IMG/VR virus record: IMGVR_UViG_3300033146_000317
Coordinates: 1-21,056 of that record
Strand: one strand, 5' to 3'
Length of the DNA stretch: 21,056 nt
Source: a virus
Within the stretch, counting starts at the first letter, position 1, and each line of letters starts with the position of its first letter. The translations under genes were made by a program, and so were the position numbers. Below the pieces are notes generated by a model. It searched no databases and was not told where the DNA came from. It saw only the letters and a list, made by a program, of their open reading frames with translations. Shown here in pieces: positions 3,110 to 21,056 of this stretch.

Positions 3110-6100
3110 CACATGCCTCCACTACCTAGTTGAACTGTCGGACCAGTCGGTCCCTCAAGTGGGCTTTCAACAAAGCCATTGAAGTCAGGTATTACTGCTG
3201 GCCTTGTTGGCTCATTCTCAATCGTCCGAGACAGTGTGGTGACTTCATCTTCGTCTGGTGTCTTCAACTCACCCATGAAGATACGGTCAGCCATTACGTA
3301 GAAGTCTGGATGTTCCTTGATGAGTAACTGCAACTCTTTCCTTAACTCATCACGTAGCCATCTGTCATCCGCACCACCAATGCTGCCGCCTTCTGCCAGT
3401 GGCAGCATGTAGTCACGTAGTTGCAGATACTTCATTGCAGCGATACCAACCTCAGTTGCTTGCAACTCAGGTGCCTGGGTTAAGGCAACTCTGATGTCCT
3501 CAATCTGAACATCAATACCGTTAGTGTTCAACTCTTGCTTCGGGTGCGTATTGGAGATGGAGCGAAGAATCTTCTTCGCTGCTTTCCACTGCGACTCATC
3601 AGCCGCAGTCCGCTCACTGTTCATAAACTGGGCATCAATCTCGGCTAACTGCGTTTCGTACAACACCTCGTTCGCTGACTGCAACCGCTCCTGTGGTGTC
3701 AACTTCCTGTCGCCCAGGTTCTCGTTGGAGAACCGCTCCATCCGTGGATCGTACCCACCACCGGGATAGAACAACGATGCAACCGTAGGTGCGGCTTTAC
3801 GTAGATTGGGGTTCTTGAGCATTTCATCAAGCGCGTCCTTTGTGGGAGTGACGCGGTAAGACTGCTTGGCGCTCAATGCCACCATTGCCTGTAGGCCATA
3901 CTTGTCAGCCATCTGCATCAAGGCACTCTCGCGACTGCCTAGTTCGTTGTACGCCTCTTGGTATTCCCGGTACATTACTGCTTGCGAGATGTCGCCCTCC
4001 GTGGTGGCGACCCTAAAGTCAGGAACAACCTGACCGGGGTGCAGTGTCATAAAGAAGCCCTTAGCGATGGACATACCTTGTGCGAACTTTTGAGCGTCTT
4101 GGGTCAGTTGGACAAGGCCCGCGCTGGTTACCATTCCCGACTCGTCGGTGTACTGATCAGGATTCTTTGTGAGGAACATATTGACGGCAGCCGGAATGTA
4201 CTTCTCGTAACTGTCCCCGAATCCCATATTGCCGCCAGTTATAGTTCCGGCAACACCGGCACCAAGATTCTGAACCCACGCAGGAAGAATGTAGGAACCA
4301 AGGTTGTCGTCCCTATCCCCCGAAGTGTCCTGAATAGGAACCAAAGATTTCTGCAATCCATCAGGGAGTCGGTTAAACAATGCGGTGTCTTGGACCCAAC
4401 TCATGGGCATCTGGACAGCGGGACCAGCACCAGGGATCAGACCGTGACCAGTGACAAGGTTGAAGGACTGGATGGGTGAACCAATCTGTGGACCAGATAG
4501 GTCCACCCCACCACCCTGAATACCAGAGAACAATGAAGCCATCGTTCCCATTGCGGAACCAAGTAGTGGGATACCCACCATGTCGCCACGCATCGGGTCT
4601 TCCCAGAAGACTGCGTTCTCTGGGTTGTTGGGGTTGTCATCCCACCACGGCCATGCCATTGCGGAACCCTCGCCACCTGCCGCACTGTAAAGAAGTGAGG
4701 CGGTGTAGACCTTACGGGGGTTACGGACAACTGCCTTGCCCCACCACTCAAGTGAGTTAGCAAACGCCTGGATGAAGGGGAATGCAATACGCATAGCGTA
4801 GGCAGTCTGGTTCCTCTTCTGTGCGTTATAGAAGCCCTTCTCGGCTAGGTCACGACCGCCTCGCATACCCAAGCCTTCGATCTCAGACTTGGACAAGTTG
4901 CCATCGGAACGCTCAGCCAACTTAGCGTTGCGCTTGATGCCGTCCAGTGTCCTGCGTGACCACGAACCCTTGCCCTTACCTTCGAGCAACTTACCGCCCA
5001 GAGATTCTTCTGCTGCCTTTACAATCTTCTCGGCAGTCTCCGGATCAACAAACTTGACGTAGCGTTCAATCTCTTCCCAATATCCATACCGGAAAGCGGG
5101 ACCATAGGTGGTCCCCTTCTCAATGAAGTTGGAGAAGTCGAAGAACCCGGTGATGGTTCTATCCCACCAAGACGCAATGGAAGAATCAAAACCTTCCGGC
5201 TTAGGTTCGGTGATGTTAATCAGCGGCATCTCGTAGTCTTCGTACCGTTGCAACCAGTCATCGGTGCCTGGTCGCCAGGTCTTGGAGCGTGGGTCGTTAG
5301 CGGCCTTCGCCTTAGCGCGTGCTTCGACTACCTTCCAGAATGCTTCTTCCGGAATATCATCTATGTCAGCCTGTCGCATGTATGCAGTGATGGTGTCCAT
5401 CATGTCCCGGTCCCACCCGAACGTCATCTCCTGCCAGCGGACAGCGAGTGAGGCAGCGTAGTTTACTTTCCGGTCGTTTTGGGTCTTGGTCTTGCCCATC
5501 CCACCCTTGGCATCCTCGATGGGCTTGTCCCACAGATACTTATGCAGTGCGTCCTTGCCGAGGGCTTCGCGCTCTGCTGCGTCTTGGGTGTCCCTGAACA
5601 TCGAGGAGTTGGGGTCAATGTTCTTTTGGAAGTAGTTGTTTTCATCGAAGTATTGCTGCAACAAGTCCCGGTCGATGGCCTCGTCATCTATGTACCGGCT
5701 ACCACCCTTACGTGATTCCCATAGGTAATCAGTGATCGCATGTTGCAACTGCCTAAGCGTGACACCATCGCCAGCATTGGCGATCTTCTGCTCGATGTTT
5801 GCTCGTTCTGCCTTCAACTGCTCGATAGTCTTGTCGCCCTTCTTCTTGGGCTTTATCTCAAGTTGATGGATTTCCTCGACAAGGGCTTTGACTTCCTTTT
5901 GTAACTGCTTAACCTCAGGGCTATTCGGTGCATAGATTCCGGAATCAACACGCCGTTGGTGGGCTTCAACCTGCTCCTTGAGTACGCGAACCTGACGTTG
6001 CATGTCTTCGATGGTGGTAGTCAACTTGTCGCGCTGGGTAGCCATCTCTTGAAGTTTGGCCTTGAAGGAGCCGGTACCAATACCGTCGTCTGCCACACGC

Positions 6101-9100
6101 TGTGCGGCAATACGGTGGACTTCCTTCATCCAACCAATGTCATTCTCCACCGCATGTTGCAGGAAGAACTTGCCAGCATCCCCGCCCCTCTTGTCGAAGG
6201 CCATCGTCCAGAAGACCATCGCACCAAGGCTGTCGTTATACAGAAGTTGCTGCTGTCTGCCCCATCCCTTCCAGAAGTTAATAACATCCTCGGTCGCAGA
6301 CATCGGGGAGACACTGACCAGTTCGGTACTGGTCTGTATCTTCAACTGATCCTTCTCCATGATGATGTCGAGACGGGAGCGGTCATTCATAATGACCTTC
6401 AAGTAGTCCTTCCACATCGCTTCGTTCTCAGCCTCATCCAAGAACGAAGACTCTCCCCACTTCTCCCCATTCAGATCAGTCCGGGCAGGTTCCCACCTGC
6501 TTAACTTGTCTGCCCACTTCTTCCGCATTGTCCCGTCCTGGGCCAATGTCAGCATCATGGCTGTCACACCTAGTGGGTTGGTGACAATGTTGGGACGGCC
6601 CTCCATCAGAAGGCGGGCCTGCATCTCACCGAGGTTACGCAGAATGTAACTCAACCGGAATGCCAACTGGGTCGAACGGAAGAACTGGTCAAAGACGGGA
6701 CCAGTCAGGTTCTTCATAGCCTCTCGGCTAGTTGCCCCTATCCCTTCCTTCTTCACCAGATAGTCGGCCTTCTTCAAAGCCTTACGTAGTTCACGCCAGT
6801 CAGGCATCACCATGAAGTCGCTCATCTCTGCCTCAAGCGGAGCGACCATCTTCAATGCTTCCTGCGTCTCATCGGTAGCAGACGGCAAAGTCTTGGCACC
6901 CTTGGCAGTGGAAGCCACTGCTGTAGCAGAGAGGAACCTGGCGTTCTCTTCGCCAGCACCCTGCCACAACTTGAACTGCTCAATCAGTTCCTCGCGCAAC
7001 TCCTTAGAGACATTCTGCGTCTCAGCCGCACGGTCCACCATGTCATCTATGTAGCGGTTCCATACGTTGCGACGGGCCATTGCCGGACTAGATGGGTACC
7101 GGATGTCAGCCATGATCATCTCGTTCACCCAGTAGTCGTGAATCATCTTGTTATTCATCACCACTTCGACGCGAGCGTCTTTGTCTGTGGTGATGTTTCC
7201 ATCTTTATCTAAGTAGTTACCGTCCCGGTCTTTCTTCCAGGCATCCATAGCCTCACGAATCTTGGCATCGTTGCGGCTAGTGGTGACACCGAACATCCCG
7301 CCACCGTTCTTACGGGAGACGAATGGCATACCGCCGTCCTTTAGGGACCGGCTTGTGTCCTTCCAAGTAGTCGGATTAAACCTAAGAACATAACCAATAC
7401 CATCAGAGACAGCCATAGCAGATTGGTTCGCATCTTTGGAATCTATTCCAATGTGCGCCCACGGTGTGATAGCCGCACGACGGTTGGCGAAGAACATGCT
7501 CGACTTCGCAGCCAACGCCCAGTAGGCGTTGAACTTGGAGTGGGGGTTGGCCCCATTCATACGAGCACGGGCAGTGGCGGCAGTGTTAGCAATCTTGCCT
7601 CGCTCATACGACACGCCAGTGTCAGCATCACGAACCATCCGGCCCAGGATGTCCCACAGTTCAGTCTCAGTGGTGGCTTCCGAAATCTCAGCCGCCCACC
7701 TTGCGGGCAATCTCCGCGCCGACAGTTCCCACAACTCGGCAGCATTATCCAACTTCAAGAAGTAGTTGACGATGAAGTCGGCATCGACATCCATGTCACG
7801 ACCACGTAGACCGAAGAACCGCTTGGTGTTGAATAGTTTGTTTAAGGCTCCGGCCAGGTCGTTCTTCCTCCGACCCGGATGTTCCCAGTTGTCATTCCAC
7901 CATCTACGCAAGGATTCGGTGTACTGCTCCTCTAGGGTCATCGGAGTCACTGGTGGCTCCCCGCCCTTACGGGCGTACTCGAACCGCTCCATCTCGGTAG
8001 CGTTCTCGAACCACTCGGTGAACTCATCAAGAACCTTCTCGGAGTTACCTGATGGCTCAAGGGAACGCTTGCTTACGTTTTCAATAACCTCATCAATGGG
8101 AGTCCTTGGGGTTGACTCAATCAAAGACTCGGCAGCCTTGGATGCCCTGACCGCTTCCTCTAGTGCCTCAGCGGTAGCGTGCTGACCGGCACGCAGGTTG
8201 GCCACTCCATCCAGTAGGGCTTCCTCGCTACCCATCGGTGGCTTGGGCTGTCCCGGTCCCTGTCTCCTGGCTCGGTCGTCGGCAGCCTTACGGGCTGCGT
8301 CCATCGCCTCGCCAATCTCATCGAAGGACTTACCGTGGATGAACTTCTGGAACGCACCACCCACGAGGAAAGCCTTGGCTTTCTCAATCGCGTAGTCGCG
8401 TTCCCATACCGTGACTGGCCTGCCGTCTTTGCGGACCTGCTTGCCGTCCTTCAACTTCGGTCGGCTACCGGGAGCACGGGGTTCAACTGGGTTGGTTTGA
8501 AGCGTGCTGTCGAACTTGTATTCCTTTACCTGCTCCTTGCCATCGGGACCAATCCACTTGGCAATAACCACACCCCTCTCATCATCAACCGTGATGCGGG
8601 CTTCCATGCCACCGTCATCAAACAACGTGTGAAGGCGCAACGTCTGTGCGCCATAGGTGGGATCGACCTTCCACTGGAACTTCTTCTTACCACCAACGAA
8701 AGCCTCTGAGGCTTTGTTGATGACCTGATCCCATTCCCCGCCCTTGGCTCCATCTACTTGAGCAAGTAGTCGGCCAGTGTTGTCATCGAAGATGCGGTAC
8801 GAGTAGGTGGGGTCCCCCGCGTATTCGTACACCTTACGAACTACTGGCTGACCGTTCTCAATGACAATGACTTCGTTGTACTCCGTTGGCTTCCTGGCTT
8901 CCACCTTCTGCGCCCGGATGCCGTAACCGATCATCCGGTCGTCGGTGACCTTCTGTCCCGGCCTAGCCACACTGTCATCGAACCGAGTGACATCATCGAG
9001 GATGACACTCTCATGCACGGCTGGCAGTGGAGTGTCACCGGAAGCAATCTGAACTGGCGGGGAGTCCTTGGTGAATCCACGAGTCAGGCTTGTGTCCAGT

Positions 9101-12100
9101 GAGCCGTCAGCCTTGAACACCAACTCGACGTAGATGTCACCATCCGTGGGGTAGGTGCGAACCTCGACCCGTCGTCCTGCGCTACCCACCTGGCCCGGAC
9201 TAGATGGGATGTAGACATCGTTCAGGTAGGACACCAGACCTGGCATCTCTGGACCTTGACGGTTCACTGCGTCTTGAGCGGTACGGGAAACGGAGTCATC
9301 CATCACTGGGTCCATGCTGGTGCCGAACCGTTCCGGATCACCCTCAGCATTCAGGACCAACTCATCGGGTGCCATCGGCTCACCGCGATAGGCACCACGC
9401 TCTGCTGCACTAGCACCAGACAGGTAACCAAGATCAATGCCCGTGGGATTGATGTCACCATTCTCATCAAGCAGGGGATACGGTTGAAGTTCCTTCCACC
9501 CCTTCGACCCACTACTCTCTAGCCAGTCAATGTGCTCCTTGAGTCTGGCCCACTCTTCCGGTGTCATGTACCCACCGCGAGGGATGCCGCCAATAATCTC
9601 CGACACCTCGACCCATGACGCATCCTTTAGTGCGTCTTCATCCAGCCCGCGCTGATCTGTCCTAGTGCTGAATGGGGAACGCTCATCCCTCGGTGTGCCA
9701 CCCGGATCAATGCGTTGCAAGTCACTCGTCGCGTACTTGGGCCTACCGTAGATAGGTTCGAGACGACCGTCAGCGTTACGAACATGGGGAACACGACCAC
9801 CCATCTCGCCAGCCATTGGAGTCGTGGTCAGTAGCGGAATCGGTGATGACCGTGCCGGGTCTACGTCAACTGCCTGCACCTCAAGTTCGTCACCCCATCG
9901 AGTACCACTGGCCTTAGCGCCTTGCATACGAGCAAGCCGCGTCGCGTCCTGGGTGCTAACTGACTGTCCCCAATACACCCACTGGTTGTCACTGGTTCCG
10001 GCAGTGGACACTCCCTCGCGTGCGGCCTCTGCCGCTTTGCCTTTGTCGCTGGGGAACAACGCCCTCGACAGGGCAATCCCCAACTCACCCTCATCCAACT
10101 TCCAAGGCTGGTAAACCAGGCCACCCGGATCAACCTCACGAGCCATGTCTAGGTACTTGGCCTTGAATGCGGTGTCAAGGATCGCAAGGAAGTTGCCGAT
10201 CAAATCCCGGTTGTCTTCACTGATGCCACGCAAGACGAGGTTGGCGTTATCTTCCAACGCACCACGAGCGGCGGGGTTGGGAGTGTTGCCAATGAAGTTG
10301 ACCAACTCATCGAATAGTTCAACCGCCTCATCACCAGTTGTAATCTCCCGACCACTGGTGGGATGTACGGCGAAGGGTTCATTCATGTCATCGGCTGCAC
10401 GACGGATGTTCTCGCGTGCCGCCTCGAAGAAGGAAGGTAGGCGACCCATCACCGCGTCGATCATGTTGTTCGGGTTCTCCGTCATAAACGCGATAGGCGC
10501 AAGGCGTGAGTCAAAGTAGTTGAAGTATTCATACTGATCGGCAGTGCCATTCAGGAAGTCTTCGATCTCCTTCTGCATCTGCCGCCAGTTGTCAGCGTTG
10601 TGAGGCTTCGGAGTGTGGGACAACAACTGGGTCAGGATTGACCTAGCGCGGTCATTAAGAGGGGACTCTCCCCGTCCCGAAGAACCAGTCCGGCGTGAGA
10701 TGTCATCACTGATCGGGTAATACTCATCGCCACCGTAGGCTAGCCCGTACTCTAGTTGGCCACCTCTGTCACCAACAATCTGTGTTACCTCATCCCCTAC
10801 CCATCCGCTTGAACCCTCTGAACCTAGTTGCCGAGCCTCTGCGGTTTCATCGCCACCAGCAACGCTGGCCTTCACTACGTCGTCGGTGCCAGCCATTGCG
10901 GCCTCGTCGGCCTGCTGGACTAACTTCTCTTCCGCCTTCGGGTTGATACCGAAGTCGATGTCCTGCTGACGAGGAAGAGTAAGGTCATCAACGATACGCA
11001 CCTTGCGGGCAAGTTCAGACTTCAAGTCTTGGTATGAGATACCCGAAGCGTCATCTGCACCAGCATCAAACTTGGGTGCTATGCCCAACTCTTCTGCCAG
11101 CATCCTGCTCAGGTTTGCCCTAGCGGCTTGGGCCTCATACGACCCCTGCCCCATTCTCCTCGGGGGAGCATTGATACCAAACGCGATCTGGAAAAACTTA
11201 GCGAATGCTTCGTTCTGCTTCTCTGCCGGTTTCGATGGGTCGAATGTCGGTACGCCCTCCACGCCGAATGCGTCTACGTAGTCCCTTACTGGGAGGTCGC
11301 CACCATCAAGCATGTCACGGGGGTACATGACATCAAGTTCTTCCGCCATCTCTTTCAGGAGATTGCTGTCGGCGTACTGACCGATGTATCGCTCGGAACC
11401 CTTGTTGATCCAGCCATACGGGGAGAGTCCGAAGACTGGGTACCACTGACCGGGGACGACTCCATCTTTAGGAACCGAACCTGATGAGTTGTAGAAAAGG
11501 AACTTCTCTCCGTCCTTCTCCACTATTGCGAAGTAGCGACCGTCATAGGAGATGACGGGTGCGCCACTACCAAGGAAGTCTTCAACGTGCTCGAAGGTTT
11601 GCTTCTGTCTTCTGGGGCCTATCTTCCTGGCGTTCTCCAACTCCTCAACAATCATGTTGAGGTTACGCAGGTAGATAGCGTCTAGGGTGGGGACACTCAC
11701 CTTGCCATTGGTGGGAATCTTTGTGGCTTCTTCCCCGTACAAAGTTTTCTGTACTGCCTGTGGGAACTGGGCGAAGGTGGAACCTGCGCCCTGGAACTGC
11801 TGCTCAAAGTCATCCATCCTCTGGATGATCGAAGCCATCTGCTCAAAGTCTTGAGGGTCTACATCGCGACCAGCACCTATGTAGATGGCTTCATCACCGT
11901 AGTACGAAGAACCAAATGGTGAAGCCTGGTTGTCCCGCTCGGCGCGAGCCACCTGAGCCATCTCTTCTTCATCGGTCACTCGACCGGCTGCTGCCATCTC
12001 CTGATCGAACTCTACATCTTGCCGGTACTCAGCCTCGTCTAGTTGGCGAGAAATAGTTGAACCATCGTAGTCAGGATGACCAGGCAGGCGGGGAGTCTTG

Positions 12101-15100
12101 GCCCGATAGATCGCATCGCTCATGGCCTTGTGCCAATCCACGACACCCTTATAGGCACCCGTGCTTTTACTGAACTCCGCCCAATGCAGGAATATCAATC
12201 CGGAACGAAGGGCATCCTCTAGGCCATACCGCTGTACGGCAGTGGGATCAGACCGAACCCAAATCTCAAACGCCTCGACTGCTAGTCGTTGGGCTTCGTC
12301 CTTCGCCGCCTTCGGGGACATCTCTTTGTCTATGGCTTTGCCCGCATCATCAACGTCTCGGGGCAACTTGCCGTTGCCCACCTTCTTCGCGTCTTCGACG
12401 CTCTTGTATCCAAGTAGTCTTGCCCAGACCTGCTCAATCGAGAGTTGTTCACCGTTGAGTTTTACTCCCCATTCCTCCCCTTGCAACAAGGCGGAAACTC
12501 CAAGAAAGCCATCCTCTTGCAGTGGAGTACCCTGCTGGTATATCCGGTTGCCGCGACCCAGACCTTCTGCGCTGTAGACCATCTTGCTTGTCCACGGGGT
12601 ACCAGTGCCGATGCGGTTGTTCTTCAACCACTCATCAAGTTCCTTTGCAGACTTGAACTCTTTGGTGCGGTAGATGTGACGCTTCCTCGTACCCGCTATG
12701 AACGCAGTGTCATCCGCCCACTCGGCAGGCATCTTGCCGCCTATGCCTAGTGCAGACATAGCCTCGGCTGCGGTCATCTCACCCAGGTACTCCACCAGCA
12801 TTGAGCGACGCTCCCGCTTGGAGACGGCCTTTACTTCTGCCTGCTCCTTCTGGGCTGGACGGTAACCCTTCGTGCCCTTCTTGCCTTTGGCTGCCCTCTT
12901 CTTCTTTGCGGCTTGGCCCTTCTTGGCCGCGCGGTCCTTGACCACGACAGTGAACTCTTCGCCAATATCGACACCGGAGATCGCACTGTCCATGACGTAG
13001 GCACCCTCGCCATAGCCAAGGTCAATAACGTCATCGCCCGGAGCGACCGGCATATCAACACTAAGATCAGCGGGTTCATCGGCCTTGCCACTCTTGAGTG
13101 GTGCCGGGATCGGTACCCGCTTCCTGGGCTTCTTGCCCTGGAAGGGGTCTTCCTCTGTGAAATCCTTACGTCGCCTGATGGGGCGTATCTCACCCACTGG
13201 GTCAACCCTGATGGATACCGAGGCATCTCGGTACATCACCTGACCATTCTCATCAAGTATTGGCAGACCCGTTTGAGGGTCTAGGTCCACAACCTTGACC
13301 GGAGTCTCAGGTCCCTCTCTGGGTTGGGTGAAAGTTTTCTTGAGTGGGTCATCATCTGCCCTAGCGGCGTTGGCCACTTCCTCTGCTTCCATCCGCTTCA
13401 TTAAGTCGCGGACACTTCCCTCCCAGTTCTCAGCGAACTGGTAGAGAGTTGACATGGGCAGTGGCTTGGCGTTGATCTTCTGACCGTTGAAAGCAACTAG
13501 GTCGTAGAGGTCGGCATCGTCTTTAGACTTGGTGATCTTCCACTTGAACTGGGTCTTCTTGGTGACAGTCTCCCCGCCTTTGCCACCTTTGACCTTGATC
13601 AGTTCCGGCTCCCAGTTATCACTCCACCGGAATACCGTCTCCCCACTCAACTCAAGAAGTTCACCCATCATCTTCTCGTACCAAAGTTTGTGCTCCCGCA
13701 CCTTCGCCTTGGCCTGCTGCTTACCGGCTAACGCCCACCCATCCGCTTTCGCCTGGTCAACCATTCCGGGGACCAACGTGTCCTCGAAGTCCTTCAACAC
13801 TCTGGCCGCACCAGCCATGAAGGTTTCAACATTCAGACGCATACCAGCCATGACCTTGCGTAGATCATCGACCTGCTCGTTGGCTGCCTTGGCCTTGCGG
13901 TACACATCCATGAACTCGTTGTACTCGCGAAGCAAAGTTTCCCCTGCCTCTTCGCGAACCAACACTGCTACCGGAGAAGGATCGACTGGCTTACCAGCCA
14001 GTGCCTCATCCGCGTAGTCGTCGGCATACCGCTCGTATTGAGCGGCCAGCCGCCACATGCTGTCCATCTCTTCGGCTAGATCGGGAGAGACATTGCGAAC
14101 AAAGTCCAACTTGATCGCCCAGTCTGCTCGACCTAATCCGGCTGCTTCCAGTCCCTCATCAACTTGGGTGTGACCCAGGTCTACACCCCTTGCTGCGTTC
14201 TCGACTCCTTCGACTGTCGCATCCGAAACAACACCAGGGTTGAATACGGTGGTATCCCGAAGTAGTTCGTCGTAGTCCGGTGCCCACTTCGCCTTAATGC
14301 CCGTCTTGATCAGGGCTTCGCTACCGGCTTGGTACAGACCTTTGGCACCAGCCTTGATAGCGCCGGGACCTATGTAGAGTGTCGGGTCAACCAGATAGAA
14401 CAAGGCATCGAGGGCACCACCATAAGAGGTGTGGATGTTGTCACCGGGGGTTGACCACGACAACATCTGACCAACTGATGCGACACCCATTCCGTCGCCA
14501 GCCTTGAGTGCCGGATCATCGGGGCTAAACTTCCACCGCTTGATGTCCTGCTGGCGCTTCGCCTTGGCGGCGGGACTCTCGTAGTCAACGAACCAACCAT
14601 CGCCCCAATCCGACAGGTACTCTTTACCGTCCGTGTCGGCAGTGAATACACCTTTGACCATTCGGGTAAAGGTGGTGTTGGTAAAGATTGACTTGAATCG
14701 TCCGGGGAACTCTTCTGCGTGTACGTTCTCCGAGTTGACTATCGCACCCCATGTCTCAGCGACAGTGTTGGAAGCGACTTCGGGTATGTACTCTAACGCG
14801 GCGATTGCACCTTGGACTATGTTCTGCGCCCAGTTCACTATGGCTGGGTCTTCGTCCTGGGCTTCCGCTTCTTCCGCAACGCGCCGCTTGTGCGCTTTAT
14901 CGTTGTACTCCTCTAGGGCAGCAACCTTGTCTTGAAGTTTGGTGGGCATCCCGGCTTGCTCAGCCAGGTTGCCTACTGCTCGGGTAGTGGAACCACCACC
15001 ACCGAGGAACACTGATGGTGCAATCAACATTGTTGCCGCACCGTCCGGTCCAATACCGGGTGCCAGTTCCGCTGCGGTCTGCAAACTGTCAGCGTCAACT

Positions 15101-15582
15101 ATGGCTTTGATGTCTGGGTTACCACTTAGCCGCGCTTTGAACTTGATCGTTTCATTCCACTGGTCTTCGGTTAGACCACGGGAGCGGTAGTATTCCGCTC
15201 GGGTTATCTGCGGCTGGGTACGGGACTCGGCAGCAATGACGTTCTGCGCTTCGTGGTAGCGATCCTCTTTGCGGTGAGTCTGAAAGCCTGTAGTGGAATC
15301 ACTAGCAGGTACGCCTAACCCCTTGCGGATTAGTTTCTCACCAAGGTCTTTACCACCGGGACGTTCTACATAGCGAAGGTCCCGACCATAAGGGTCGGTA
15401 TCTCGGTCAGGGTCGGTACCAAGACTGACGTTGGGTTTGTTGACGAAACGATCCGTCACCCGTTGGGCGCGCTCGTAACCTTGCTCGCCATACTCCGGAG
15501 TGTCCACACCGATGAGGCGAACATCGCCATCATCAGTCTTGATTGTGTCGCCATCAATGGCACCCCAACCGTCAGTGCTCAT
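3109..15582 (-). CDS. giant virion protein with N-terminal staphylococcal-nuclease-like domain, 4157 aa
   Basis: This single uninterrupted frame encodes a protein of roughly 460 kDa. The ATG at 15582 overlaps the previous gene's stop (ATGA) and has GAGGG just upstream. Residues 1 to about 120 match the thermonuclease (SNase) family: IDGDTIK, VRLIGVDTPE and DPYGRDLRYV align with D21, R35, D40, E43 and R87 of staphylococcal nuclease as D12, R22, D27, E30 and R67, so the full catalytic set is present. The rest is mostly unassigned. There is a Lys/Ala-rich basic stretch near 880-910, a segment containing WYPVFGLSPYGWINKGSERY near 1375, a helical block with LSYILRNLGEMQARLLMEG near 2977-2995, a clear heptad-like coiled coil at about 3175-3269, and a Trp- and Pro-rich region with hydrophobic stretches near 3615-3690. 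I found no cysteine anywhere. Giant proteins encoded near portals are often carried in the virion and ejected with the DNA. I looked for single-subunit RNA polymerase motifs as in N4 virion RNA polymerase and did not find them. The nuclease is solid; ejection and target (host DNA or competing DNA) are inference. Confidence 0.93.
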   Translation of the reverse strand: MSTDGWGAIDGDTIKTDDGDVRLIGVDTPEYGEQGYERAQRVTDRFVNKPNVSLGTDPDRDTDPYGRDLRYVERPGGKDLGEKLIRKGLGVPASDSTTGFQTHRKEDRYHEAQNVIAAESRTQPQITRAEYYRSRGLTEDQWNETIKFKARLSGNPDIKAIVDADSLQTAAELAPGIGPDGAATMLIAPSVFLGGGGSTTRAVGNLAEQAGMPTKLQDKVAALEEYNDKAHKRRVAEEAEAQDEDPAIVNWAQNIVQGAIAALEYIPEVASNTVAETWGAIVNSENVHAEEFPGRFKSIFTNTTFTRMVKGVFTADTDGKEYLSDWGDGWFVDYESPAAKAKRQQDIKRWKFSPDDPALKAGDGMGVASVGQMLSWSTPGDNIHTSYGGALDALFYLVDPTLYIGPGAIKAGAKGLYQAGSEALIKTGIKAKWAPDYDELLRDTTVFNPGVVSDATVEGVENAARGVDLGHTQVDEGLEAAGLGRADWAIKLDFVRNVSPDLAEEMDSMWRLAAQYERYADDYADEALAGKPVDPSPVAVLVREEAGETLLREYNEFMDVYRKAKAANEQVDDLRKVMAGMRLNVETFMAGAARVLKDFEDTLVPGMVDQAKADGWALAGKQQAKAKVREHKLWYEKMMGELLELSGETVFRWSDNWEPELIKVKGGKGGETVTKKTQFKWKITKSKDDADLYDLVAFNGQKINAKPLPMSTLYQFAENWEGSVRDLMKRMEAEEVANAARADDDPLKKTFTQPREGPETPVKVVDLDPQTGLPILDENGQVMYRDASVSIRVDPVGEIRPIRRRKDFTEEDPFQGKKPRKRVPIPAPLKSGKADEPADLSVDMPVAPGDDVIDLGYGEGAYVMDSAISGVDIGEEFTVVVKDRAAKKGQAAKKKRAAKGKKGTKGYRPAQKEQAEVKAVSKRERRSMLVEYLGEMTAAEAMSALGIGGKMPAEWADDTAFIAGTRKRHIYRTKEFKSAKELDEWLKNNRIGTGTPWTSKMVYSAEGLGRGNRIYQQGTPLQEDGFLGVSALLQGEEWGVKLNGEQLSIEQVWARLLGYKSVEDAKKVGNGKLPRDVDDAGKAIDKEMSPKAAKDEAQRLAVEAFEIWVRSDPTAVQRYGLEDALRSGLIFLHWAEFSKSTGAYKGVVDWHKAMSDAIYRAKTPRLPGHPDYDGSTISRQLDEAEYRQDVEFDQEMAAAGRVTDEEEMAQVARAERDNQASPFGSSYYGDEAIYIGAGRDVDPQDFEQMASIIQRMDDFEQQFQGAGSTFAQFPQAVQKTLYGEEATKIPTNGKVSVPTLDAIYLRNLNMIVEELENARKIGPRRQKQTFEHVEDFLGSGAPVISYDGRYFAIVEKDGEKFLFYNSSGSVPKDGVVPGQWYPVFGLSPYGWINKGSERYIGQYADSNLLKEMAEELDVMYPRDMLDGGDLPVRDYVDAFGVEGVPTFDPSKPAEKQNEAFAKFFQIAFGINAPPRRMGQGSYEAQAARANLSRMLAEELGIAPKFDAGADDASGISYQDLKSELARKVRIVDDLTLPRQQDIDFGINPKAEEKLVQQADEAAMAGTDDVVKASVAGGDETAEARQLGSEGSSGWVGDEVTQIVGDRGGQLEYGLAYGGDEYYPISDDISRRTGSSGRGESPLNDRARSILTQLLSHTPKPHNADNWRQMQKEIEDFLNGTADQYEYFNYFDSRLAPIAFMTENPNNMIDAVMGRLPSFFEAARENIRRAADDMNEPFAVHPTSGREITTGDEAVELFDELVNFIGNTPNPAARGALEDNANLVLRGISEDNRDLIGNFLAILDTAFKAKYLDMAREVDPGGLVYQPWKLDEGELGIALSRALFPSDKGKAAEAAREGVSTAGTSDNQWVYWGQSVSTQDATRLARMQGAKASGTRWGDELEVQAVDVDPARSSPIPLLTTTPMAGEMGGRVPHVRNADGRLEPIYGRPKYATSDLQRIDPGGTPRDERSPFSTRTDQRGLDEDALKDASWVEVSEIIGGIPRGGYMTPEEWARLKEHIDWLESSGSKGWKELQPYPLLDENGDINPTGIDLGYLSGASAAERGAYRGEPMAPDELVLNAEGDPERFGTSMDPVMDDSVSRTAQDAVNRQGPEMPGLVSYLNDVYIPSSPGQVGSAGRRVEVRTYPTDGDIYVELVFKADGSLDTSLTRGFTKDSPPVQIASGDTPLPAVHESVILDDVTRFDDSVARPGQKVTDDRMIGYGIRAQKVEARKPTEYNEVIVIENGQPVVRKVYEYAGDPTYSYRIFDDNTGRLLAQVDGAKGGEWDQVINKASEAFVGGKKKFQWKVDPTYGAQTLRLHTLFDDGGMEARITVDDERGVVIAKWIGPDGKEQVKEYKFDSTLQTNPVEPRAPGSRPKLKDGKQVRKDGRPVTVWERDYAIEKAKAFLVGGAFQKFIHGKSFDEIGEAMDAARKAADDRARRQGPGQPKPPMGSEEALLDGVANLRAGQHATAEALEEAVRASKAAESLIESTPRTPIDEVIENVSKRSLEPSGNSEKVLDEFTEWFENATEMERFEYARKGGEPPVTPMTLEEQYTESLRRWWNDNWEHPGRRKNDLAGALNKLFNTKRFFGLRGRDMDVDADFIVNYFLKLDNAAELWELSARRLPARWAAEISEATTETELWDILGRMVRDADTGVSYERGKIANTAATARARMNGANPHSKFNAYWALAAKSSMFFANRRAAITPWAHIGIDSKDANQSAMAVSDGIGYVLRFNPTTWKDTSRSLKDGGMPFVSRKNGGGMFGVTTSRNDAKIREAMDAWKKDRDGNYLDKDGNITTDKDARVEVVMNNKMIHDYWVNEMIMADIRYPSSPAMARRNVWNRYIDDMVDRAAETQNVSKELREELIEQFKLWQGAGEENARFLSATAVASTAKGAKTLPSATDETQEALKMVAPLEAEMSDFMVMPDWRELRKALKKADYLVKKEGIGATSREAMKNLTGPVFDQFFRSTQLAFRLSYILRNLGEMQARLLMEGRPNIVTNPLGVTAMMLTLAQDGTMRKKWADKLSRWEPARTDLNGEKWGESSFLDEAENEAMWKDYLKVIMNDRSRLDIIMEKDQLKIQTSTELVSVSPMSATEDVINFWKGWGRQQQLLYNDSLGAMVFWTMAFDKRGGDAGKFFLQHAVENDIGWMKEVHRIAAQRVADDGIGTGSFKAKLQEMATQRDKLTTTIEDMQRQVRVLKEQVEAHQRRVDSGIYAPNSPEVKQLQKEVKALVEEIHQLEIKPKKKGDKTIEQLKAERANIEQKIANAGDGVTLRQLQHAITDYLWESRKGGSRYIDDEAIDRDLLQQYFDENNYFQKNIDPNSSMFRDTQDAAEREALGKDALHKYLWDKPIEDAKGGMGKTKTQNDRKVNYAASLAVRWQEMTFGWDRDMMDTITAYMRQADIDDIPEEAFWKVVEARAKAKAANDPRSKTWRPGTDDWLQRYEDYEMPLINITEPKPEGFDSSIASWWDRTITGFFDFSNFIEKGTTYGPAFRYGYWEEIERYVKFVDPETAEKIVKAAEESLGGKLLEGKGKGSWSRRTLDGIKRNAKLAERSDGNLSKSEIEGLGMRGGRDLAEKGFYNAQKRNQTAYAMRIAFPFIQAFANSLEWWGKAVVRNPRKVYTASLLYSAAGGEGSAMAWPWWDDNPNNPENAVFWEDPMRGDMVGIPLLGSAMGTMASLFSGIQGGGVDLSGPQIGSPIQSFNLVTGHGLIPGAGPAVQMPMSWVQDTALFNRLPDGLQKSLVPIQDTSGDRDDNLGSYILPAWVQNLGAGVAGTITGGNMGFGDSYEKYIPAAVNMFLTKNPDQYTDESGMVTSAGLVQLTQDAQKFAQGMSIAKGFFMTLHPGQVVPDFRVATTEGDISQAVMYREYQEAYNELGSRESALMQMADKYGLQAMVALSAKQSYRVTPTKDALDEMLKNPNLRKAAPTVASLFYPGGGYDPRMERFSNENLGDRKLTPQERLQSANEVLYETQLAEIDAQFMNSERTAADESQWKAAKKILRSISNTHPKQELNTNGIDVQIEDIRVALTQAPELQATEVGIAAMKYLQLRDYMLPLAEGGSIGGADDRWLRDELRKELQLLIKEHPDFYVMADRIFMGELKTPDEDEVTTLSRTIENEPTRPAVIPDFNGFVESPLEGPTGPTVQLGSGGM

Positions 15583-16313: not shown

Positions 16314-18182
16314 CTATATCGGCATTTGCCGTTGCACGCCTGCACTCAAGTTGGGATCGCCACTAGCGCCGAGTCCGGCGAGCATGTTGAGATCGGCTTG
16401 CATGTCGCCGGATGGTTGCATTGGTGGACCACCGGGGGGACCCCCTGGTGATGGGGGGGGATTGCCAGGTAGCCCCGCGCCCGGTGGACCTAGCCCCGGC
16501 TCTGCTGGAAGACCCGGAGCGGCTTGTTGTAGTTCCGGTTCCGGCTCTGGCTCCGGTGGAGCCAACGCCTCGGAAACTATCTTCTCTAATGGTATCCCCT
16601 TAGTCCGACCATTCACGACATCTGTGATTAGTTGGAGTGCCTGATTCGGATCGCCGCCTTGGGCGGTCATCTCGGGGATGGAAGATGCGTACTGTTGGAC
16701 CGCTACCTTCAATGCTTCGCGCGTGTCTTCAACGTCGATCTTTCTTTCTTCTGCCTCAACGTCCAGATCAGCAGGCATCTGGCGACGAAGGTAGTCGCGC
16801 GAGATGAGTTTTTCTGCTCGGGCTTGCAGTCCAAACACAAGCCAGCGCGAGGGATCAAGACCGGCCATGAGTCCGTATTGCACATCAACGTCGTACACAC
16901 CATTGATTGCTTTCTCCGGCGTGTACTCAAGATCGAACGGAGTCCCATTCGTTGTCCCCTTGATTCGCTTCTTCTTCTTGCCCCACATCTTCTCGTCGCA
17001 CTCAAGTGCGAGGCTTGCGGTCTTGGTGAGTAGTGGAGCCAACACTGCTTGCGCGGTACGAACCTGGGTATCGAACCCTTCCATCAGGGCTTGAACGCCC
17101 TTGCCGGTAACGTGTCCCCCCGCTGCGCTGGGGTCCCCGCCACGAAGTTCGGGGTAGCGTGATCCTTCCCGCTGTTCGCGGGCAAGGGTGGCATCTTCTT
17201 GCCACATCGAGGGGGGAACATCCAACTGTAGTCGCCGGACGTTTTGCGGCTCCGAAGTACGTAGGTGAGCATCCGGACCCAACGGCACGTTGGTGACATC
17301 CGGCGGCACAATGATGGGTGCCTGGATTGACTTATGTGCCGCTTCCAATCCGAGTAGTGCCATTCGACTGCGTGCCAACTGCACGAACATTACGTCGTCG
17401 AACTGGCCCCTAACCACTGGGCCGGGTCGCATCGCCACATTAACGAGGCACTTTCCGACAGGATTGGGCACTCGGGACAACAACATTGCCTGGGAGGATG
17501 AGATCGCTCCGGCGGGCAAGAACACTGTGTCGGCTTTTTCGTCATGGTGGAACACCACCTCAATGAGTTGGTTATCAGCGGGACTGTCGCCGTAGTCGTA
17601 CTTCTTTTGCAGTGGCCCCTCTAGTTCCGGATACAGTTCGGCCAGCATCTCGACTGTGCAGTAGGTCCGTTGGTACAACGCAGTACATCGCCGCCATCTG
17701 TCGATCACCGGGTAGCAACCCATTGGGTCAAGCATCCGGATGATCGGCAGCATGTTGTCGTAGTCGTATTCAATCTTGGAGAATGCCCAGCCAAAGGTGA
17801 CGAAGTTGTCGGCGGCTGTGTACATCTGGGTCTGCATGTCAGACCCATGAAGTATGGCGGAGAGAATCTTGGTGCGTTTCTCTGCCGCTTTCTCCTGAGC
17901 GGGGGACAACCCGGCGGATGATCCGGCGTTGAATGCGGGTAGTGGGGCAATCATTTCCGCTAGATCGCGGGCCGCAACGTCGATCATGTTGGCGACGATT
18001 GGCTCCTGCCAAGGACCATCGCCGGGGAATAGGTCTGGGGCTAGATCGGAGATGCGACCAGACCTAATCAGGAGAAGTTGCTGGTGCTTGAGGTCGCGGT
18101 TGGCATAACGGGACAGCATTCGGCTGAACCCGTATGAGAGTTTCATCAGACCACTGGGGTCATTTGGCCCGCTAATGTTCAC
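16314..18182 (-). CDS. phage portal protein, 622 aa
   Basis: The portal forms the dodecameric ring at the head vertex through which DNA is packaged and ejected. Support is the position directly after the terminase, the length, and the sequence style: a helical start (SYGFSRMLSRYANRDLKHQQ), a segment DGPWQEPIVANMIDVAARDL typical of portal clip/wing regions, then FGWAFSKIEYDYDNMLPIIRMLDP, and a long helical C-terminal half with ISRDYLRRQMPADLDVEAEE. From about residue 540 the protein becomes a Pro/Gly-rich tail that is probably disordered. The frame is open up to 18347, but that extension is the reverse-frame overlap with terminase and looks non-coding. I chose the GTG at 18182, which overlaps the terminase stop by 4 bp (GTGA). 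The ribosome binding site is weak, and the ATG at residue 13 is an alternative. It contains five cysteines, unlike the downstream genes. Confidence 0.85.
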   Translation of the reverse strand: MNISGPNDPSGLMKLSYGFSRMLSRYANRDLKHQQLLLIRSGRISDLAPDLFPGDGPWQEPIVANMIDVAARDLAEMIAPLPAFNAGSSAGLSPAQEKAAEKRTKILSAILHGSDMQTQMYTAADNFVTFGWAFSKIEYDYDNMLPIIRMLDPMGCYPVIDRWRRCTALYQRTYCTVEMLAELYPELEGPLQKKYDYGDSPADNQLIEVVFHHDEKADTVFLPAGAISSSQAMLLSRVPNPVGKCLVNVAMRPGPVVRGQFDDVMFVQLARSRMALLGLEAAHKSIQAPIIVPPDVTNVPLGPDAHLRTSEPQNVRRLQLDVPPSMWQEDATLAREQREGSRYPELRGGDPSAAGGHVTGKGVQALMEGFDTQVRTAQAVLAPLLTKTASLALECDEKMWGKKKKRIKGTTNGTPFDLEYTPEKAINGVYDVDVQYGLMAGLDPSRWLVFGLQARAEKLISRDYLRRQMPADLDVEAEERKIDVEDTREALKVAVQQYASSIPEMTAQGGDPNQALQLITDVVNGRTKGIPLEKIVSEALAPPEPEPEPELQQAAPGLPAEPGLGPPGAGLPGNPPPSPGGPPGGPPMQPSGDMQADLNMLAGLGASGDPNLSAGVQRQMPI

Positions 18183-20062
18183 ACCCACATCCGGGTAGAG
18201 GCAGATTCCTCGCCGGAATCGAACGAATCTGTGACAGTAGCCACCCGCTGGGCGGTCAGGTCTGCGCGGGTAAGGAACGCCGATTTGCCGTGGGATAGCC
18301 CACCGGCACCGGCAGTCAACTCCTGGCAACGCAGTTCTGCGAACCATAATGCCATAACTAGGTCAGTCTTGTGGCCTGATCTGGCCTTACGGGACTGGGC
18401 TACCTCGGGGTCCCAGGTCAATAACTGCTCGGTTAATGCCCTGGCAGCCTCGGTTCGCTGGCTGGGTAGGGTGATAAGGCGCTGGCGGAATAGGTGGGTC
18501 ATCGCCGCCACGCCGAAGATGGGGTCATGCTTGTTGTTTCCGGTGTGATGTTCGTGGAATACCACGCCGCGAGCGGCGCAATAGTCGTTAATCTCCCGGT
18601 CTAGGGCTAGGAAACGCTGGAAAGCGTTTCCTTCGATACGTATTTCGTTGACCTTATGCTGAGTTATCCAGCGGCGGATCAGCATTCTCATACGATCCGG
18701 GGTCATAGCCGCTTCGTTATGGATGTCTATCACCCACCGATGCCCGGTGGCGCGGTCCAATCCCACCAATACCGCGCCGGTATAGCCAGCAACGGCAGGG
18801 TCAAGCCCCATAATCAGCCGCAATCCGGCTGATCCTGTCTCTCTTCCCAGGCTTTTATCGTCCGTCAGGGTGCCGGGAGGGTAGGCACCAATGCAGGAAT
18901 CCACTTCCTCCGGCTTGAAGATGCTGTCCTCGGACACCTGCTCCTGTTGATACATCCGTGACCATTCGGATGTGGGCATAGCCGCCCTCACCTCGGCCAA
19001 GGTATGGCCATCCCATCTGGGGAATAACCCATCTGGGTCCGGTTCCTGCTCGGAATCGGCGGCAACGTCAGTCAATGGCCATAAGGTTTCCCAGTCAGCC
19101 GGGTCTTCGGCATACTCCAAGACCGCTGGCTGAGACAGGTAGGTCCACGGCGATTGGTTGCCGTGATACCGGGATTCGTCCTGTAGTTCGGAGTAGATGT
19201 CACGCGCCGCAATGCGCGTGCCAATCACTAGCAACCTTCCGGTCCTCGGCGCTAAGCGGGATGCCGCCATTGTGAGGAGCCAATGGATTTGCTTGTCAAA
19301 GTCGTGGGCGTTAATGCTGTCGGCTACGTCATCAACAATGATGAGATCGGCACGGGCACCGTAGATTTGTCCTCCAACGCCCAAGGCTTGGACTGTCGGG
19401 TCTTTGGCCTCGGCTCCTCTGACTTTGGACGATACGTAGAATCTGCTGGCAGACCAGCCAGCCGATTCGGAATCGTAACCGCCGGGTGGTGCAAAGTCAT
19501 CTACTACTCCCTGGTACTGAGGGCTAGTCAATCTCTCTTTGATCTGCAAAAGGAACTGCTCAGCAAGACGCTGAGCCTTAGACACAATGATTACTCTGAC
19601 ACTGGGGTCAGAGACTATGCGCCAGGTCACGTAGTCAGCGGTGATAGTGGTGGACTTGGCGTGGGCAGGCGGGGTATTTACTATGACTCGGTTCTTCTTC
19701 GCTGGCCGGAACTCCATCGCGGGGTGTAGGCCAGTAGGTTCCTCCCCCTCAAGCAACTGAACCCATTGGCGCTGATGAGGCCAAGTCCGCTGGCCCAGGT
19801 ATCTTTCTCGGAATGTCTCGAAGTCCGGCACTTCCTTGCCGGATTCGACCAACTCACCCCTGGCAGACTTCTCTACCTCGTCCCATCGTTTACGAAAACC
19901 CTCGTCGGTATATTTCCAGTGGCGTACCGTCGTCCACTTCCGCTTGATCTTCTTCGCGGCATCCTGAGGGTCGCGTCCCTCCTGAATGTATTTCAGGAAG
20001 TTGGACTTTGCTTTCGCAGTCGAGCCTTGGTTCTTCTTACGACCCGATCCCTTAGACGGCAC
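18179..20062 (-). CDS. terL: terminase large subunit, 627 aa
   Basis: This is the ATP-driven DNA packaging motor and nuclease. The ATPase half has a Walker A-like TPPAHAKST at 130-138 (K136; an Ala replaces the usual Gly before the Lys), a Walker B ADLIIVDD at 238-245 ending in Asp-Asp rather than Asp-Glu, and a coupling motif IGTR at 280-283. The nuclease half (RNase H-like fold) has D421 in IMGLDPAV, E477 in IRIEGNA and D567 in HKTDLVMALW, the expected acidic triad. Residues about 20-66 look like a helix-turn-helix of the kind found in small terminase subunits (DPQDAAKKIKRKWTTVRHWK, then DEGFRKRWDEV). The start is the GTG at 20062, with AAGG six bases upstream, inside the last codons of the HNH gene (11-bp overlap). 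No separate small-subunit gene is visible in the window. Confidence 0.95.
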   Translation of the reverse strand: MPSKGSGRKKNQGSTAKAKSNFLKYIQEGRDPQDAAKKIKRKWTTVRHWKYTDEGFRKRWDEVEKSARGELVESGKEVPDFETFRERYLGQRTWPHQRQWVQLLEGEEPTGLHPAMEFRPAKKNRVIVNTPPAHAKSTTITADYVTWRIVSDPSVRVIIVSKAQRLAEQFLLQIKERLTSPQYQGVVDDFAPPGGYDSESAGWSASRFYVSSKVRGAEAKDPTVQALGVGGQIYGARADLIIVDDVADSINAHDFDKQIHWLLTMAASRLAPRTGRLLVIGTRIAARDIYSELQDESRYHGNQSPWTYLSQPAVLEYAEDPADWETLWPLTDVAADSEQEPDPDGLFPRWDGHTLAEVRAAMPTSEWSRMYQQEQVSEDSIFKPEEVDSCIGAYPPGTLTDDKSLGRETGSAGLRLIMGLDPAVAGYTGAVLVGLDRATGHRWVIDIHNEAAMTPDRMRMLIRRWITQHKVNEIRIEGNAFQRFLALDREINDYCAARGVVFHEHHTGNNKHDPIFGVAAMTHLFRQRLITLPSQRTEAARALTEQLLTWDPEVAQSRKARSGHKTDLVMALWFAELRCQELTAGAGGLSHGKSAFLTRADLTAQRVATVTDSFDSGEESASTRMWV

Positions 20063-20453
20063 ACCACACCTTAGCGTTCTTTATATTGCTAACGGTAGCC
20101 TGCGACACGCCGTAATCGGCGGCGATGTCGCGTTGTCGTCTGGTATCGACCCGAATCTCTTCTACTTCGGCAGCCGTAATCTTAGCGTTGGGGTTATCTT
20201 CCCCAACGCAGGGATTGAACCGATTCCGTTCTACGGCTTCGGCCATATTCTCTTGATGAGTCCCCAGGTGTAGGTGATCAGGATTAACACAGCCCGGATT
20301 GTCGCAAGAATGCAAGACATGAAGGCCGTCAGGTATAGGACCATAGGCCATGACGTAAATGAAACGATGAGCACGCCACCTCACACCTTTGTAGGTGAGT
20401 TGACCGTACCCTTTTGGAGTGCGATATTTCTGCCACTCGACACACTCTGACAT
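20052..20453 (-). CDS. HNH endonuclease with C-terminal helix-turn-helix, 133 aa
   Basis: The central region matches the HNH_3 type: AHRFIYVMAYGPIPDGLHVL leads to LHSCDNPGCVNPDHLHLGTH, with H48, N57 and H60 as the likely HNH residues and C50 and C55 as structural cysteines; the ENMAEAVERNR helix follows. The C-terminal ~45 residues (NPNAKITAAEVEEIR ... RDIAADYGVSQATVSNIKN) form a helix-turn-helix as in free-standing phage homing endonucleases. The ATG at 20453 has AAGGG 7 nt upstream. It overlaps the terminase start by 11 bp. HNH proteins next to terminase genes can assist packaging cleavage in some phages (HK97-like), but this domain arrangement is also that of a mobile homing endonuclease. 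The sequence does not decide between the two. Confidence 0.9.
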   Translation of the reverse strand: MSECVEWQKYRTPKGYGQLTYKGVRWRAHRFIYVMAYGPIPDGLHVLHSCDNPGCVNPDHLHLGTHQENMAEAVERNRFNPCVGEDNPNAKITAAEVEEIRVDTRRQRDIAADYGVSQATVSNIKNAKVWCAV

Positions 20454-20465
20454 TTGATAGCCCTT

Positions 20466-20594
20466 CTAACCGCCCGGTGGGAACCGCCTTTCACTGCCGT
20501 CCACCCGAGTCTCTTGGAAATCGCGGAAAACTATGGCCTGCCCAATAGGACCCCGTGGTGTCGCCCAACCAGGCCGCTGTCTAGGGTTCCGCAT
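20466..20594 (-). CDS. possible small basic protein, 42 aa (doubtful)
   Basis: A 42-codon frame starts at the ATG at 20594 and ends 12 bp before the HNH gene. The product is Arg- and Pro-rich (MRNPRQRPGWATPRGPIGQ ... DGSERRFPPGG). The ribosome binding site is weak (GTGGG at short distance), and several codons (AGA, AGG, ATA) are uncommon in the neighbouring genes. The frame stays open upstream to 20759, but that extension runs through the repeats and hairpins and reads as non-coding. It may be non-coding leader sequence; I include it because it abuts HNH on the same strand. Confidence 0.25.
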   Translation of the reverse strand: MRNPRQRPGWATPRGPIGQAIVFRDFQETRVDGSERRFPPGG

Positions 20595-20635
20595 TTGCCC
20601 ACGGTAACACAGGTGACCGGAATACAAGGCGATAC

Positions 20636-20692
20636 AACACGAATACCACCGGCAGAAACAAGTAGCATCGGCGGAACAAAAACCATCGGCAG
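20636..20692. repeat. three abutting 18-20 bp direct repeats
   Basis: Three related units follow one another almost without spacing: 20636-20655 (begins AACACGAATACC, ends CCGGCAG), 20657-20674 (begins AACAAGTAGC, ends ATCGGCGG) and 20675-20692 (begins AACAAAAACC, ends ATCGGCAG). The shared pattern is AACAM, a variable middle, then CAYCGGCRG. A weaker fourth copy may start at 20606 (AACACAGGTGACCGG). They lie about 180-240 bp upstream of the HNH-terminase genes. Tandem units like this usually bind an oligomeric protein. A terminase recognition site (as with the R sites of lambda cosB) or a regulator site are both possible. Confidence 0.5.
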
Positions 20693-20709
20693 AATGAGTT
20701 TTTGTTAAG

Positions 20710-20808
20710 TCCCTTATAGAGGGATTCTCTTCAGAGAATCCCGATACTATCGGGATCATCTAGAGGATGATCCCTCTTTACTATCGCCGGAGTAGTCTTT
20801 ACTCCGGC
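20710..20808. other. array of perfect hairpins sharing arms, upstream of the packaging genes
   Basis: Five perfect inverted repeats lie in 99 bp. TCCCT (20710-20714) pairs with AGGGA (20720-20724). GGGATTCTC (20721-20729) pairs with GAGAATCCC (20734-20742). ATCCCGATA (20738-20746) pairs with TATCGGGAT (20748-20756). GGGATCATC (20752-20760) pairs with GATGATCCC (20766-20774). GCCGGAGTA (20786-20794) pairs with TACTCCGGC (20800-20808). The first four overlap, so each GGGAT or ATCCC can pair with either neighbour. AGAGGGA (20718-20724) also pairs with TCCCTCT (20771-20777), closing a 60-nt four-way junction. No U-run follows in either direction. Being palindromic, the array could fold as RNA from either strand or as DNA cruciforms. 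Confidence 0.75.
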
Positions 20809-20820
20809 TCTATAAGTATC

Positions 20821-20854
20821 GAGAGAGGCCCGAAGGGCTGTAAGGGCCTCTCTC
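20821..20854 (-). other. 11-bp hairpin at the likely 5' end of the late transcript
   Basis: GAGAGAGGCCC (20821-20831) pairs perfectly with GGGCCTCTCTC (20844-20854) over a 12-nt loop. The loop itself contains a GGGC that could compete for the GCCC arm. It lies just downstream of the candidate minus-strand promoter, so a transcript starting near 20848 would begin inside this stem. No U-tract follows on either strand, which argues against a simple terminator; a CT repeat follows on the plus strand. Confidence 0.5.
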
Positions 20855-20885
20855 TCTATGTAAAGGGTAACACAACTTGTCAAGT
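20855..20885 (-). promoter_or_regulatory. candidate late promoter with palindrome over the -35 box
   Basis: On the minus strand TTGACA (20883-20878) is a perfect -35 consensus. Seventeen bases further is CATAGA (20860-20855), a poor -10. The -35 box sits inside an 11-bp perfect palindrome, ACTTGTCAAGT (20875-20885), which would suit an operator. A promoter here would drive the HNH-terminase-portal genes with a leader of about 400 nt containing the hairpin array and repeats. The -35 is convincing and the -10 is not, so confidence is modest. Confidence 0.4.
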
Positions 20886-20895
20886 GTTGCGCGAG

Positions 20896-20918
20896 AAAAA
20901 ACCAAAGATTTATTTGGT
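20896..20918 (-). terminator. weak candidate intrinsic terminator
   Basis: ACCAAA (20901-20906) pairs with TTTGGT (20913-20918) over a 6-nt loop. On the minus strand the stem runs into six consecutive T (20901-20896). The stem has only two G-C pairs, so it would be inefficient. Its position just upstream of the candidate late promoter would separate that promoter from any transcription entering from the right. Confidence 0.3.
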
Positions 20919-20941
20919 GATACATACGATAATATGCGTCG

Positions 20942-20954
20942 CTTGTGCAACAAG
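20942..20954. other. small hairpin
   Basis: CTTGT (20942-20946) pairs with ACAAG (20950-20954) over a 3-nt loop. Alone it would be unremarkable; it continues the dense series of inverted repeats across this non-coding stretch. Confidence 0.3.
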
Positions 20955-20965
20955 GGGCGGGTCAA

Positions 20966-21054
20966 ACTGTCTATCGTGACGGTCTGTAACGACCATTTAT
21001 GGCAAGGGTGGGGGGTGAATAAAATGATAGCCCCCATACACCCTTGTAGACAGT
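20966..21054. other. nested stem structure at the right edge
   Basis: ACTGTCTA (20966-20973) pairs with TAGACAGT (21047-21054), enclosing two further stems. One is GGTC (20981-20984) with GACC (20991-20994). The other is CAAGGGTG (21003-21010) with CACCCTTG (21039-21046), extended inward by GGGGG (21011-21015) with CCCCC (21031-21035) and a 3-nt bulge. Together they make a three-way junction of about 89 nt. No ORF covers it convincingly. It could be a structured RNA or a DNA structure; the strand cannot be decided. Confidence 0.45.
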
Positions 21055-21056
21055 GA

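Follow-up and report, generated by a model that had tools for sequence, protein, structure and literature searches.

Stem-loops at the head of a transcript are known from several bacterial and phage systems. mRNA-stabilising 5'-terminal stem-loops are described for E. coli and B. subtilis in work cited by PMC3997798, the cases of interest here being the E. coli 5' stem-loops, papA and B. subtilis aprE. In phage HK022 the put RNAs (putL and putR), which act as antiterminators, are stem-loops that closely follow a promoter at the start of an early operon; putL, with about 70 nt and two stem-loops, shares sequence with putR, and its effect extends for 10 kb or more (PMC9378689). Palindromes can also work as DNA, and the processing of the terminal repeat of T7 has been reported to involve a DNA hairpin (PMC4281155). 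We describe here a structured element upstream of the terminase gene of a virus that has a likeness to each of these systems.

The DNA analysed (the window) is an entire viral record of 21,056 bp, a fragment without its other end, in which the genes read leftward: an HNH endonuclease (20052-20453, minus strand), the large subunit of terminase (18179-20062, minus strand), the portal (18347-16314, leftward-reading) and then other ORFs. The HNH gene, which looks like an inserted free-standing endonuclease, lies between the proposed leader and terminase, the first presumed late gene after it, and shares 11 nt (20052-20062) with the beginning of the terminase gene. The minus strand also holds a single ORF of 4157 aa (3109-15582), the start of which seems, judged by eye, to resemble a staphylococcal-type nuclease.

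The structured element is located in the intergenic region of about 600 nt (20454-21056) upstream of the HNH, terminase and portal genes. This region showed no tRNA, Rfam match or recognisable gene: ARAGORN found neither tRNA nor tmRNA, and at the gathering threshold there was no Rfam match, the sub-threshold ones to mir-9440 and engA being discounted. A first-pass annotation of this DNA had taken the element to be non-coding and apparently this is so, as none of the five short ORFs in the region has a PHROG match; the two of them that were scanned had no Pfam match either, and a coding explanation was rejected. Downstream of the hairpin array an 18-19-nt repeat occurs three times in imperfect tandem (20639-20694, minus strand), with GCCGAT or GCCGGT as its minus-strand core; the copies are possible iterons or protein-binding sites. 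The relatives L003 and L097 also contain GCCG-core repeats, with a spacing of 17-19 nt.

The same annotation had pointed to a segment of this region (20718-20777) that closes as a perfect four-way junction with no spare base, a form said to be unlikely by chance. All four stems do exist, with loops of 4, 3 and 5 nt; every pair is Watson-Crick, and the segment closes as a flush 7/5/7/5 junction. When the window was searched for any flush triplet of hairpins enclosed by a further flush stem, each stem at least 5 bp long, this segment was the sole match, and such a junction occurred in none of 2337 versions of the entire 21 kb made by dinucleotide shuffling (in 2 of 2337 when stems of at least 4 bp were accepted). 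Folding of both strands against shuffled sequences, which had been suggested as a check, gave z values of -5.5 (plus) and -4.3 (minus) for RNA and of -4.3 for DNA. It is in the choice of helices that the annotation erred: its outer and middle helices have a pair probability of 0 to 0.01 in context and are the wrong subset of those available. The junction can slide with all pairs kept, every form from 7/5/7/5 through 3/9/3/9 being perfect, because GGGA and TCCC alternate as the shared ends of overlapping palindromes (20721-20742, 20739-20755 and 20752-20774). The middle palindrome, H2 (TCCCGATAGTATCGGGA, 20739-20755, no strand assigned), is the middle arm of that junction and competes with the flanking hairpins H1 and H3. 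Taken alone, the 60-nt stretch prefers two 9-bp hairpins in the DNA model (-17.1 against -14.8 kcal/mol for the junction) and a rod in the RNA model (-34.9 against -25.3 to -27.4 kcal/mol on the plus strand), and to force the smaller junction in context costs 13.8 (RNA) or 5.4 (DNA) kcal/mol relative to a larger one at 20713-20816. In these models the junction at 20718-20777, to which no strand is assigned, is an alternative pairing and not the predicted fold.

On the minus strand, which is sense for terminase, positions 20862-20705 are predicted to form one dominant structure that is shared by the RNA and DNA models. It begins with hairpin H5 (20821-20854, minus strand; 11-bp stem, 12-nt loop) and continues with a flush four-way junction, or cloverleaf (20713-20816, minus strand), which is both the minimum free energy and the centroid structure in the two models. 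The outer stem of 8 bp (20816-20809 with 20720-20713) encloses H4 (20786-20808; 9 bp, 5-nt loop), an arm, paired at its base as 20785-20743, that carries H3 (20752-20774; 9 bp, 5-nt loop), and H1 (20721-20742; 9 bp, 4-nt loop), all on the minus strand and without an unpaired base at the junction. The predicted helices have RNA pair probabilities of 0.99-1.0, the z value against shuffles is -9.0 (-10.4 for a longer piece), and only 2 of 1500 shuffles of this stretch gave a fold with a flush four-way junction. The 9-bp stems of H4, H3 and H1, with starts 34 and 32 nt apart and similar linkers (GATACTTATAGA, GATAGTAAAGA and GATAGTATC), look like diverged copies of one unit, which may have arisen by duplication. 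A search of viral contigs for the exact H1-type pattern gave 0 matches.

H5 directly follows a promoter-like element (20856-20883, minus strand) composed of TTGACA (20883-20878) and TTTACATAG (20864-20856). The spacing of these two parts is not that of a canonical sigma-70 promoter, and the promoter match of the window is weak. The position of the element corresponds to that of the TATATATAG motif of relatives, which itself differs from the canonical -10 box; the version in the window is TACATAG, placed after TTGACA and directly before the array.

We tentatively favour the reading that a late transcript carries this structure as its 5' untranslated leader, whose most likely role would be the protection of that mRNA. 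Transcription would start from the promoter-like element just before H5 and proceed along the minus strand through the HNH, terminase, portal and structural genes, so that the mRNA would begin almost immediately with H5, followed by the rigid cloverleaf of H4, H3, H1 and the 8-bp closing stem. With its 5' end buried in helices, the long late mRNA would resist decay from that end. As in the stabilising stem-loops of E. coli and B. subtilis, a stem is predicted at or near the 5' end of the transcript and upstream of the coding region; those systems have one stem and this locus several hairpins and a flush four-way junction, behind a start that is predicted. Simple 5' protection would need only one hairpin, and up to six are present among the relatives, which counts against this role. 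Structured 5' leaders are already known as a kind, and this element matches no Rfam family.

Searching viral contigs with terminase returned sets of 80, 9 and 80 loci that have some members in common. The closest relative has 62% terminase identity to the window (best match), and a scan for closer ones based on L003 found only L002 and more distant loci. The named phages matched are Streptomyces phages of the Beephvirinae (podophages), at about 41% identity, and among genome contigs three Streptomyces records were found (42-44% identity). In many of these divergent relatives, both metagenomic contigs and Streptomyces Beephvirinae, perfect hairpins unrelated in sequence are found at the matching place. 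Across 42 leaders the mean z was -2.2 to -2.35 for sense-strand folding windows that began between 300 and 200 nt ahead of the terminase match, compared with -0.4 to -1.1 for those further out, in a scan that used few shuffles per position; the structure maximum lies 150-300 nt upstream of terminase. If the HNH gene is allowed for, the array of the window would sit in a comparable place. When 68 leaders were grouped by similarity, at least one strong stem was counted in 52 of 68 groups (up to six stems) and in 14 of 68 mononucleotide-shuffled segments, the counts selecting for near-perfect pairing; 16 of the 68 groups had no strong stem. L016-L018 contain about nine perfect hairpins over about 0.8 kb, some 1100 to 330 nt upstream of terminase, an array denser and longer than those of other relatives.

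The sequence and the number of the hairpins (one to six) vary between groups, and since distant relatives keep hairpins of different sequence in the same place, it is the folding itself that seems to matter. The first-pass annotation had expected compensatory changes in the stems. These were observed in the first hairpin of one alignable group of 13 leaders, which stays paired through changes on both sides; a separate list of such changes selects for pairing and is illustrative only. The window has no alignable relative, so the covariation test is inapplicable to its own stems. The flush four-way junction was not found in relatives and its exact form was seen in the window only. No description of a leader of this kind was found in the part of the literature that was searched. 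It is conceivable, though rather unlikely in our judgement, that these loci form a widespread and undescribed class of phage leaders, in which structure is conserved over sequence and a hairpin at the 5' end, its loop often of 12 nt, precedes a variable array or flush junction between the terminal repeat and terminase, as a new RNA device acting on the late transcript or in packaging.

The hairpins are phased to the promoter-like motif. A stem of at least 7 bp starts within 18 nt of the TATATATAG-type motif in 18 of 22 leaders, compared with 7.7% at random positions in the same sequences, and the first loop has exactly 12 nt in 6 of the 22 motif-bearing leaders, compared with 1.4% at random positions; the p-values for this phasing are only a guide because the leaders are related. 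In Beephvirinae phages such as Immanuel3 and FlowerPower a TATATATA motif lies shortly before the hairpins. The ATATATATAG core occurs at most twice per record in the 14 records tested. In L023, L045, L055, L142 and L144 the first hairpin after a TATA-like motif often has a 12-nt loop, as does H5, and in the L023 group, judged by eye, the loop sequence GGGCGC could pair with a downstream GCGCCC in a possible pseudoknot.

That the hairpins begin right at a promoter-like motif favours an RNA read toward terminase. On the sense strand, moreover, G-U pairs outnumber A-C pairs (22 to 9, p=0.03), and the hairpins have C-rich 5' arms and, as their most frequent loop, TTCAG; this asymmetry and loop polarity weakly favour sense RNA. 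The strand evidence is modest because the two strands have about the same mean z, as expected of a DNA element.

The position of the array gives further reason to consider DNA. Direct terminal repeats were found in three Streptomyces relatives, of 275 bp in Immanuel3 and 253 bp in FlowerPower, where the two genome ends were compared, and of 396 bp in the Abafar record. As the inner edge of the 253-275-bp repeats of the nearest named relatives lies just upstream of the matching region, the array is probably close within one end of the genome and ahead of the late genes, as judged from these genomes; the window is a fragment and lacks its other end. TTTGACCC (20959-20966, minus strand) corresponds to the CTTGACCC element of relatives, and in Streptomyces phages a similar GACCCGGGG-type element is found just within the repeat, which ends shortly after it. 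A TTGACCC element occurs in the window and in many relatives in the corresponding order. In Immanuel3, genes 1-49 all point away from this region and most others read oppositely from the far end. With such a position both a leader RNA and a role in packaging or replication have to be weighed.

In the latter case the palindromes beside the terminal repeat would serve, possibly as extruded hairpins, in terminase recognition, concatemer-junction processing or the initiation of replication, which we regard as possible but less probable than a leader. The similar fold strength on both strands and in the DNA model and the nearly exclusive Watson-Crick pairing of the stems (961 of 1058 positions) agree with this, as do the direct repeats adjoining the array and the likeness to the hairpin of the T7 group, where palindromic DNA lies near a direct terminal repeat as it does in the relatives. 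However, the array is in unique DNA inside the repeat and has a modest sense-strand asymmetry, which differs from the T7 group, and the G-U bias, the loop polarity and the phasing to the motif on the terminase side indicate one strand. DnaA boxes, as in a DnaA-dependent origin, are enriched in the intergenic regions of several relatives (52 against 15 expected), with clusters upstream of terminase in L066 (six), L045 (five), L043 and L064, which hints that replication of these phages may begin close to the end of the genome; in the region of the window no DnaA box was found when one mismatch was allowed. The annotation had compared the element with a cloverleaf or with a cruciform of replication or packaging origins; the flush four-way junction and a probable proximity to a genome end agree with this, and that the DNA there forms a cruciform is a possibility only.

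A leader RNA could also act on transcription. As with HK022 put, a promoter-like element comes immediately before the hairpins, which precede a long co-directed set of genes, and the annotation of Immanuel3 lists no RNA polymerase gene. The hairpins would in this case be a cis-acting antiterminator, which by binding the polymerase as it transcribes would allow the long late operon to be read. We consider this improbable. The put elements antiterminate without a protein factor, by way of the zinc-binding domain of the polymerase beta' subunit; they serve early genes and consist of two stem-loops with conserved sequence, whereas the putative antiterminator here would precede late genes, is larger and has one to six hairpins with no sequence common to relatives. 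Such variation between groups fits poorly with specific polymerase contacts, and the lack of an Rfam match also speaks against it.

Still more doubtful is that the hairpins are intrinsic terminators or attenuators without a U-tract, ending short transcripts from an upstream promoter. Many relatives have a second promoter-like element about 150 nt further upstream, and some G+C-rich hairpins, such as GCGGCCCC-ttcag-GGGGCCGC, are terminator-like. Yet an intrinsic terminator has a U-tract after its G+C-rich hairpin, and here only 5 of 122 stems are followed by at least five T in the next 8 nt, none being a clear U-tract; the single terminator-like match in the array is on the plus strand, so that a sense-direction terminator array is unsupported, and terminators directly after a late-gene promoter would require a release mechanism.

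We tentatively infer, then, a leader that acts as RNA. For it count the low z values, pair probabilities near 1 and the peak of structure upstream of terminase, together with the motif phasing, the two-sided stem changes, the G-U bias, the loop polarity and the gene direction in Immanuel3; against it count the weak promoter match, the equal z on both strands, the groups without a strong stem and the absence of the exact flush junction from relatives. If transcribed, the element would be a recurring structured leader without an Rfam family, placed ahead of the late genes in a broad phage group that is known chiefly from metagenomes and Streptomyces. It offers a simple way to ask whether a 5' fold serves these phages as armour for their late mRNA, or whether the structure holds signals for packaging or replication while its sequence drifts freely.
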